A DNA stretch of 64,000 nt from Alphaproteobacteria bacterium (GTDB lineage Bacteria > Pseudomonadota > Alphaproteobacteria > Caulobacterales > Aquidulcibacteraceae): assembly GCA_018969015.1 (NCBI GenBank), contig JAGWZE010000006.1, positions 1 through 64,000 of the forward strand, given 5' to 3'. Within the stretch, counting starts at the first letter, position 1. The number at the start of each line of letters is the position of its first letter. This document shows, one piece after another, positions 10,357 to 12,507 of this stretch. Below the pieces are notes generated by a model. That model was not told where the DNA came from. It saw only the letters and a program-made list of their open reading frames with translations, and searched no databases. A program made the translations under genes and the position numbers.

Positions 10357-11385
10357 TCAGGCGACGATGATGCGGCTTTCGGCGACGCCGCGGCCGCCCG
10401 CATGGATCTCGCCGGTGCCCCAGTCGCGGAATTCCAGGCGCGCGCCGTAGGTGCCCGGCGTGGCCGGCGCATCGATCAGGAAATCGAAGCGCTGGGCGGA
10501 GGTCATGTCCACGCTCGTGCCGCGCGGCAGCGGGATCGGCCGGCTCCAGGGCGAGGCGGCGCGGCCGAGACCGCGCCCGTCGACGGCGACGATCGTGGCG
10601 TCCAGGTCGAACGCGACGCGCAGCACGCTGTAGGCGCCATTGATCAGGCGGATCAGAACCTTCTGGCGCGGCTTGGCGCGCACGATCACGCGCGGATCGG
10701 TCAGCGTGCGCGGCGCGGGCACGCCGGAGATCATGAAATAGCGCGGCGAGAAGCGGTCGAGCGCGACGTCTTCGCCGCACAGGCCGGCGTCGTGGTTGTA
10801 CTCGTGCCAGACCGGGTCGACGTCGTCGGCGACCCAGATGGCTTCGACGTCGTAGCGCGGTCCGCCGGTGAAAAGCGTGCCGGGTCCTTCGGGCGGGTCG
10901 ACGATCAGCGGCCCGTACATGCCCATCTCGAAGTGCAGCACGGTGTTCTTGTGACAGTGGTAGAAATACGTGCCGGCGTTCGCGGGCCGCCATTGATAGG
11001 TGTAGGAGCCGCTGACCTCGAAGGAGAGGTGGCCGACGCCGTCGTTGAAGGTCGTGGGGTCCATCCCGTGGTGATGGATCGTGTGCGTGTTCTTCGCGGA
11101 CTTGAGCGTCGTGTGAACGACCTGTCCTTGCCGCACGCGGATCAGCGGCGACGGGAAGGGCTTGTCCTTGTCGGCGTTGGTCGCGTTCGGATCGGAGAAG
11201 CTCCAGAACCGGACCTCCCGCCCGTCGGGCATCAGCACGTCGGCGCCGTCATGCACCTGCCGCGTGAAGCGGATATCGGGCCGAACGAGATCGGGCGTGT
11301 CCGGATTGACGTGCCAGACATTGCAGCCGAAGGAGTCGAAGGTCTGTTCGCCGGAAACGCCGGTCTTCGTGAAGTCGATGGCCAT
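10357..11385 (-). CDS. Multicopper-oxidase-like protein carrying the N-terminal copper motifs
   Basis: 342 aa, two cupredoxin-like domains. The first copper motif is THTIHHHG (H101, H104-H106). The second is YFYHCHKNTVLHFEMGM (H143, C144, H145, H151, M154/M156), which can supply a type-1 site of the C-x6-H-x4-M sort. No C-terminal HxxHxH or HCHxxxH motifs are present; those are in the neighbour 11395-12507, which ends 10 bp upstream. There is no signal peptide, so export would need the Tat-signal partner. Probable copper-dependent oxidation of metal, phenol or another small substrate, but the substrate is unknown. Family membership is confident, while the paired-subunit model is inference. 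Confidence 0.82.
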   Translation of the reverse strand: MAIDFTKTGVSGEQTFDSFGCNVWHVNPDTPDLVRPDIRFTRQVHDGADVLMPDGREVRFWSFSDPNATNADKDKPFPSPLIRVRQGQVVHTTLKSAKNTHTIHHHGMDPTTFNDGVGHLSFEVSGSYTYQWRPANAGTYFYHCHKNTVLHFEMGMYGPLIVDPPEGPGTLFTGGPRYDVEAIWVADDVDPVWHEYNHDAGLCGEDVALDRFSPRYFMISGVPAPRTLTDPRVIVRAKPRQKVLIRLINGAYSVLRVAFDLDATIVAVDGRGLGRAASPWSRPIPLPRGTSVDMTSAQRFDFLIDAPATPGTYGARLEFRDWGTGEIHAGGRGVAESRIIVA

Positions 11386-11394
11386 GGCGCGCGC

Positions 11395-12507
11395 TCAGCT
11401 CGTAGCGGTGGGACGGGTGGGGCCGAGAAGCTCCCAATGGGTCGTCAGGCCCTGTGGATAGTTCCCGCCGCCGGCCGTCTGCGACATCTCGGTGTGGCAG
11501 TGCATCGCGTAGCGCAGCGGGAAGGGCTCTTCCTTCGGCGGCCACGCGCCGGGTGGAATGTCCTGCGGGCGCTCGAACGGCAGGATCAGGTCCTTGCGAT
11601 CGAGGGCGCGCATGATCCAGGTGTCGCGCTCGATGATGTTGTCGCGCACGACGACGCTCCCATCGGCGCCGACTCCGGACAGTTCGAGCACGTGGTTGCC
11701 GTGGATGTGCGGCGCGTGCGTGTTGCGGCCGGCGTTCAAGTTGCGGATGAGCAGCGGTTGGCCGACATAGCCTTTCGGCTTCACCGTCTCGGCTTCGGAG
11801 GAGTCGAAGCCGCTCAAGCCGTTGATCGTGAAATAGCGCGGCGCGAACGTGCGCTGCACGGCGGCGCCGTCGATCGGCCGGCGCAGTTCGGCCTGCTCGC
11901 AGAGCGCCGGATCGATCTGGGCGAACAGCCAGATCTTCTCGCGGGCGGGGCGCCACGGATCGCCGACAAAGCGCGCCGTCGGATCGTCGCGCATCGCGTC
12001 GAACAGGAGGCGCGTGGCCGGCGTCAGCGTTTCCGCGGAGAACGGCGTCAACGCGCCGCCGGGCGTGTGGCCGTCGCGCGGCGTCGAGATCAAGGCGCCG
12101 TGCAGGCCGAGCAGGCGATGCGCGGGCGCGTTGAGCGGATCGAGATAGAGATACGTGCCGCCGCGGGGCGCCCGGAACGTCACCTCGCCGCGGCCGCCGG
12201 GGGCGATGGCGGCGATCTCGGCGCCGGGCGCGCCGGGAATCGCGAACGCATGTGGCTCCGGCGCGTTGTTCCGTAACGTGACGGTGACGAGATCGCCTTC
12301 CGTCACGCGGATGACCGGTCGCGGCTCACTCTGCGCAGCGCCGTAGAACAAGAGCTGATAGACGACGCGGCCGTCGATCAGCTCGACGTCGGCGGGCTCG
12401 ACGGAAAGGTCGATGCGCGTCGCCGTGGCTTGGGCATACGCTTCCTCCGACGCGGACAATACTGCCGCGCCAGCCCCGCCATAGGTGAGGAACTGTCGTC
12501 TGTTCAT
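11395..12507 (-). CDS. Tat-exported multicopper-oxidase-like protein carrying the C-terminal copper motifs
   Basis: 370 aa from the ATG at 12507, chosen because it begins a Tat signal (MNRRQFLTYGGAGAA) that ends in AYAQA; the upstream frame is unlike a signal peptide. The N-terminal cupredoxin domain has a single histidine (EPHAFAIPG) where HxHG is usual. The C-terminal domain holds HAPHIHGNH (H264, H267, H269, H272), equal to classical motif 3, and MHCHTEMSQ (H336, C337, H338), equal to motif 4 but without the following type-1 histidine. First gene of a two-gene unit with 10357-11385. It was probably folded with copper in the cytoplasm or periplasm, then acts in the periplasm. Confidence 0.82.
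   Translation of the reverse strand: MNRRQFLTYGGAGAAVLSASEEAYAQATATRIDLSVEPADVELIDGRVVYQLLFYGAAQSEPRPVIRVTEGDLVTVTLRNNAPEPHAFAIPGAPGAEIAAIAPGGRGEVTFRAPRGGTYLYLDPLNAPAHRLLGLHGALISTPRDGHTPGGALTPFSAETLTPATRLLFDAMRDDPTARFVGDPWRPAREKIWLFAQIDPALCEQAELRRPIDGAAVQRTFAPRYFTINGLSGFDSSEAETVKPKGYVGQPLLIRNLNAGRNTHAPHIHGNHVLELSGVGADGSVVVRDNIIERDTWIMRALDRKDLILPFERPQDIPPGAWPPKEEPFPLRYAMHCHTEMSQTAGGGNYPQGLTTHWELLGPTRPTATS

Follow-up and report, generated by a model that had tools for sequence, protein, structure and literature searches.

Two adjacent genes of an alphaproteobacterium, here called A and B, very probably encode the two unlike chains of a periplasmic multicopper oxidase, a heteromer with its trinuclear copper centre at the contact between them. 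The genes are located in a stretch of 64,000 nucleotides of contig JAGWZE010000006.1 (the window), and both open reading frames and their copper motifs were recovered where a first-pass annotation of the sequence had placed them (Table 1). The A protein carries only motifs 3 and 4 of multicopper oxidases (H264-x-x-H267-x-H269-G-x-H272 and H336-C-H338), with Ser342 occupying the place of the type-1 His of HCHxxxH. The B protein carries only motifs 1 and 2 (H101-T-I-H104-H-H106-G and H143-C144-H145...H151..M154-x-M156), the latter of which aligns to HCHVNVNEHV..GM of the type-C oxidases 2zwn and 3g5w.

The conservation of these ligands was counted over 73 B rows, 69 A rows and 69 A–B pairs. Wherever present, H101, H104, H106, H143, C144, H145 and H151 of B are invariant, and M154 is kept in 95% of the rows, the fourth type-1 ligand being Leu in three rows and Tyr in one; the type-1 set is present in every B row. 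On the A side, H267 (100%), H269 (99%), H272 (99%), H336 (100%) and H338 (100%) are retained nearly throughout. The residues of A that would contribute to a type-1 site are poorly kept (H264, 84%; C337, 72%), a His at position 342 is found in none of the 69 A rows, and no A row possesses a complete type-1 set. Furthermore, no His in domain 1 of A is conserved above 78%, and no conserved His was found in domain 2 of B among the aligned relatives.

Each chain carries four of the eight trinuclear histidines, and all eight are present in 68 of the 69 pairs, the exception (L023) being a damaged gene. The combination by which the multicopper oxidase superfamily is recognized, eight trinuclear histidines and one type-1 site (His, Cys, His, Met/Leu), is found in these 68 pairs only across both chains. 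This bears out the first-pass annotation, which had described a full trinuclear set only for the two proteins taken together, with the motif-4 type-1 His missing in A and a possible type-1 set on B. The motifs of A and B are no chance pattern, since relatives from many phyla retain these histidines.

In the mechanism that we propose, electrons from a reduced substrate would enter at the type-1 copper of B domain 1 (H101, C144, H151, M154) and would travel along H143-C144-H145 as a bridge to the trinuclear copper centre. This centre would consist of H104, H106, H143 and H145 of B and H267, H269, H336 and H338 of A, and O2 would be reduced to water there. Neither A nor B alone would be able to form this centre. 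An acidic/His patch in the linker of B (E181 and D190 in 73/73 rows, D187 in 67/73, H194 in 59/73 and H198 in 60/67) may represent a substrate-metal site.

Pairing of the genes and the export signal

When one genome of each species was scanned, 70 loci with relatives of B were returned; the scan demands near-exact short motifs, and this number is therefore a lower bound. A is located directly 5′ of B on the same strand in 65 of these loci, four loci begin at or near a contig end, and the remaining one (L070) is a natural A–B fusion, a single frame of 858 amino acids with A followed by B. In 40 of the genomes concerned, which were searched whole, 58 of the 61 places occupied by B are directly preceded by A; of the three unpaired places, two are at the very beginning of a contig, and the last belongs to a three-gene system related to the pair. 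The adjacency that the first-pass annotation expected to be conserved is thus indeed conserved, and neither set showed homologues that regularly lack the partner gene, which that annotation would have counted as a refutation. The sequence distances of A and B are correlated with r = 0.87 (62 pairs), compared to a maximum of 0.21 in 1000 permutations.

The hosts belong to Alphaproteobacteria, Gammaproteobacteria, Desulfuromonadales and other ‘deltaproteobacteria’, Nitrospirota, Myxococcota, Bdellovibrionota, Planctomycetota and Actinomycetota. Members are rare in the genomes sampled: with 289 genomes taken from the class and 398 from the phylum, a true member was found only in the window genome, which contains three A–B pairs (the other two are 59–71% identical to the window pair). 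Two single relatives with low scores in the phylum sample, G472 and G727, were set aside, being ordinary two-domain oxidases that hold both ligand halves in a single chain. A scan of viral contigs found no relative, and a viral origin was rejected on this basis.

Copy number and layout vary among the loci. Skermanella aerolata has seven B genes in one genome (L033, L034, L044, L046, L047, L048, L051), each beside an A gene or a fragment of one, which is a marked lineage-specific expansion. The gene order is B-A-B in L083 and B-B in L081, where two tandem B genes (L081:2-2196) are preceded by a region that lies past the contig end. An Arthrobacter plasmid (NZ_CP084562.1, L116:4658-7005) carries an A–B fusion with an apparent frameshift in its B part, for which the annotation lists two multicopper oxidase domain proteins. 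On a large plasmid of Indioceanicola profundi (L114:5784-8023), A is annotated only as a hypothetical protein, and the pair is therefore easily overlooked. A split centre would explain why the halves are so vaguely annotated (‘multicopper oxidase domain-containing protein’, ‘hypothetical protein’) and why each alone would be discarded as an incomplete oxidase.

The N-terminus of A, MNRRQFL, resembles a twin-arginine (Tat) signal and gives a weak match to Pfam TAT_signal. R3 and R4 are conserved in 98% of 65 A proteins, an RR motif is present in essentially every full-length A row, and some A proteins (L050, L063, L070) combine the RR signal with a lipobox. B has no signal peptide in the window; its relatives start with plain, cytoplasmic-looking sequence, and no signal was found in those paired loci that were inspected. 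Hydrophobic stretches reaching 1.5 or more are found in 37/61 A rows versus 5/68 B rows. The assignment of a Tat signal to A and of none to B, made in the first-pass annotation, was thus correct, and the distribution is that of a Tat ‘hitchhiker’, with the twin-arginine signal on one partner only, save for one B in L081. B is likely carried out of the cytoplasm together with A: the folded pair, or a larger assembly, would be exported through the Tat signal of A. B would depend on A for its cluster and, probably, for its export, and the pair offers a ready test of Tat export of a copper enzyme built from a signal-bearing and a signal-less chain.

Origin, modelled assembly and rival explanations

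The first-pass annotation had described one oxidase split in two genes, with its copper motifs in swapped order. This part of the description had to be abandoned: A and B are full two-domain paralogues, and their motif order is that of single-chain bacterial six-domain oxidases (PMC3600357). Profile–profile alignment with hhalign found A and B to be collinear from domain 1 into domain 2 (99.6%), and a reversed three-domain oxidase cut in two was rejected on the same evidence. In the phylogenetic tree, A forms one group (98/94) and B another (99/94), the latter on the same side as the single-chain type-C two-domain oxidases (the root serves for drawing only). These comparisons make A and B ancient paralogues that each have the layout of a homotrimeric two-domain oxidase.

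Two further loci (L122:2422-6811 and L121:2376-5999) contain three consecutive two-domain oxidase-like genes, X, Y and Z. X is B-like (type-1 site and motifs 1 and 2), Y is A-like (motifs 3 and 4) and Z is ligand-poor; in the tree, X groups with B, on the type-C side, and Y groups with A. These operons apparently encode a three-subunit, six-domain multicopper oxidase. The simplest reading of the sequences is that a homotrimeric two-domain oxidase, the common ancestor of A and B, was duplicated and that the copies then lost complementary halves of the copper site; the ‘swapped order’ would therefore involve no rearrangement. It is fairly probable that a whole scattered class of heteromeric enzymes (AB pairs, the AB fusion and XYZ) arose from a homotrimeric two-domain oxidase by such duplication and complementary ligand loss, with the trinuclear centre split over several gene products and a signal-less chain that needs its partner for both cofactor and export.

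The AlphaFold2 model of the window pair, in which A and B were folded as one chain with the intervening TGA read as Trp (102 aligned rows), has a predicted local distance difference test score (pLDDT) of 94.4 and a predicted template modelling score (pTM) of 0.94. The natural fusion L070, which needs no stop-codon device, gave values of 94.7 and 0.93, respectively. The window model aligns as a whole to ceruloplasmin residues 1-697, which comprise domains 1–4 (508 residues, root mean square deviation 3.8 Å, Z 21.9), and so does the L070 model (509 residues, 3.9 Å, Z 21.2). MnxG (9bxa) is the second Foldseek match of the window model and the first of the L070 model, and each half of the models also matches a complete two-domain oxidase. 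As the whole models align to ceruloplasmin domains 1–4, domain 2 of A packs in them against domain 1 of B in the manner of the ceruloplasmin 2/3 contact. In the six-domain ring, contacts 2/3, 4/5 and 6/1 are equivalent, and this is where trinuclear centres sit (PMC3600357).

Considering (i) the pairing of the genes, (ii) the conservation of the ligands and (iii) these models, an obligate pair with a trinuclear centre at the A/B interface, as put forward in the first-pass annotation, is strongly supported. Some observations weigh against it. The interface centre is placed by domain equivalence in the models and not by His–His distances. The window model was obtained as one chain by reading TGA as Trp, and L070 lessens this problem but is also one chain. 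Finally, the second B of L081 has its own Tat-like RR-lipoprotein signal, and the dependence of B on A for export is therefore not universal.

The single TGA that separates A and B in a shared frame of the window could indicate that a single-chain oxidase broke recently or is decaying, or that a fusion is produced by stop-codon readthrough. However, A and B are in frame in about 23 of the 65 two-gene loci, the third that chance alone would give; both genes are intact, their conservation extends over many phyla, and the A and B clades are old. We rejected this explanation as hardly credible; given the chance rate of in-frame spacing, the readthrough in the model is a device and not biology. A complete type-1 site on B alone would also suit a blue-copper electron-transfer protein that is merely co-transcribed with A, a copper-binding or degenerate oxidase that could by itself hold one or two copper ions. 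Such independence is very unlikely and was rejected on the pairing and ligand data, as the trinuclear histidines are invariant on both chains while being useless to either alone, and the near-absolute pairing, the natural fusion and the high pTM of the pair all speak against it.

A more substantial alternative concerns the stoichiometry of the complex and would leave the active site between A and B unchanged. Instead of an AB dimer, the working enzyme may be a ring of six domains in which A and B make up two of three two-domain units. It would then be a heterotrimer, completed by a second A, a second B or another subunit, or else a higher oligomer. The AB model covers only domains 1–4 of six-domain ceruloplasmin, homotrimeric two-domain oxidases have six domains in all (PMC13151041), and the three-gene XYZ operons and the B-A-B and B-B gene orders point in the same direction. 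On the other hand, no third two-domain oxidase gene is located beside the pair in the AB neighbourhoods read, and a natural A–B fusion exists. We consider such a ring plausible, though somewhat short of an even chance.

Neighbouring genes and possible function

The features of the pair in the window are listed in Table 1. Pfam family PF07732 scores above its cut-off in both A and B, and PF07731 does so in B.

Table 1 Features of the A–B gene pair in the window (strand: −, reverse).
Feature	Position	Strand	Description
Gene A	11395..12507	−	370 amino acids; ATG at 12507; Tat-signal-bearing subunit with two cupredoxin domains; putative motif-3/4 half of the trinuclear centre
Gene B	10357..11385	−	342 amino acids; ATG at 11385; signal-less subunit with two cupredoxin domains; putative type-1 site and motif-1/2 half
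A/B spacer	11386..11394	.	9 nucleotides from the A stop (TGA) to the B start; A and B in the same frame
A Tat signal region, MNRRQFLTYGGAGAAVLSASEEAYAQA	12427..12507	−	Pfam TAT_signal E 9e-4, below its cut-off
A domain 1	12073..12420 (limits approximate)	−	Cupredoxin with every copper ligand lost; Pfam Cu-oxidase_3 match, residues 59-142
A motif 3, H264-H272	11692..11718	−	Predicted trinuclear ligands H267, H269
A motif 4, H336-C337-H338	11494..11502	−	Predicted trinuclear ligands H336, H338; without type-1 site
B motif 1, H101-H106	11068..11085	−	Predicted ligands: H101, type 1; H104 and H106, trinuclear
B motif 2 merged with type-1 site	10924..10959	−	H143, C144, H145, H151, M154
B linker patch	10768..10845	−	Conserved acidic/His cluster: E181, D187, D190, W193, H194, H198, C203
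B domain 2	10360..10863 (limits approximate)	−	Cupredoxin without copper ligands; collinear with A in hhalign

The neighbours of the window pair (CheA-like, histidine phosphotransferase, DUF1318 and YdbH-like genes) have no evident link to it. Genes of Curlin-like repeat proteins are located just 5′ of the pair in the C3 copy of the window genome and in one genome of the same family (L008:3361-5735, L021:3-2006).

Across the family, SCO1/SenC genes are present in 30 of 75 loci, mostly immediately 3′ of B (L008, L016, L025, L027, L028, L030, L031, L035, L037–L040 and others) and sometimes also 5′ of A, with PCuAC. This proximity suggests dedicated copper insertion. PCuAC occurs in 6 of the 75 loci, and CusA, CusB or NosL in a few. 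Di-haem peroxidase genes (CCP/MauG) follow the pair on its 3′ side in 11 loci (L055, L064–L069, L072, L046, L051, L075), mostly in Desulfuromonadales-type genomes. Large RTX animal-haem peroxidase genes (PF03098 and PF00353) are found 0.8–2.3 kb 3′ of the pair in seven loci (L016, L020, L021, L024, L026, L032, L058). Their domain layout matches that of MopA, a Mn oxidase (PMC6247904). Sphingomonas aerolata, in which the whole-genome searches found one copy of the pair, also has an RTX peroxidase near it. Taken together, the SCO1, PCuAC and peroxidase neighbours suggest copper loading and extracytoplasmic redox work, with Mn(II), Cu(I), Fe(II) or phenols as possible substrates.

A narrower proposal is that the complex belongs to an extracytoplasmic metal-oxidizing system, for instance for Mn(II), that acts beside the peroxidases. 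The peroxidases of MopA architecture and of the CCP/MauG type near the loci listed above, the same position of the centre in bacterial MnxG (PMC3600357) and the acidic/His patch of B are consistent with this role. However, the window copy has no peroxidase neighbour, and SCO1, PCuAC, Cus and NosL fit copper handling equally well; we regard this role as rather unlikely.

Comparison with known oxidases

Multicopper oxidases have been described as monomers or homotrimers (PMC13151041). A close parallel to the heteromeric oxidase proposed here is provided by the type-C two-domain oxidases (mgLAC, 2zwn; Nitrosomonas europaea blue copper oxidase, 3g5w), which likewise have two cupredoxin domains per chain. 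Their type-1 copper is in the N-terminal domain, with HTIHxHG and HCHxxxxxH motifs, a pattern seen in B but not in A, and their trinuclear centre is formed where domain 1 of one chain meets domain 2 of a different chain (PMC13151041), as proposed for A and B. They differ in being homotrimers with both halves of the centre in every chain. A lacks the domain-1 set (motifs 1 and 2) and B the domain-2 set (motifs 3 and 4), and two different genes are therefore needed.

MnxG shares with the modelled pair a trinuclear centre between domains 2 and 3, with motifs 3 and 4 preceding motifs 1 and 2 (PMC3600357); in the pair, by equivalence, these would be A domain 2 and B domain 1. MnxG is, however, one chain of six domains, whereas A and B have two domains each and are separate chains, fused only in L070 and, apparently, in the frameshifted Arthrobacter copy. 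Furthermore, its type-1 site is in domain 2 (PMC3600357), whereas that of the pair is in the equivalent of domain 3 and never in A. The fold of ceruloplasmin domains 1–4 spans both chains in the models, but ceruloplasmin is a single chain with its trinuclear centre between domains 1 and 6. Three-domain laccases, CueO and CopA have three domains in one chain and a type-1 site with motifs 3 and 4, neither of which applies to A or B, and the NCBIfam scores of A and B for CopA and CueO are far below the cut-off. Heterodimeric fungal laccases such as POXA3 also consist of two different subunits, of which the small one is not known to carry copper ligands; A and B differ from them in that both would contribute to one copper centre.

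No report of a multicopper oxidase with this arrangement was found in a literature search limited to open-licence papers. The order of the motifs has precedents in single-chain six-domain oxidases such as MnxG; what is new here is the obligate heteromeric form. If the proposed assembly is correct, A and B provide a clear natural case of a homomer made into an obligate heteromer by complementary loss, with an eight-histidine centre divided between two genes.
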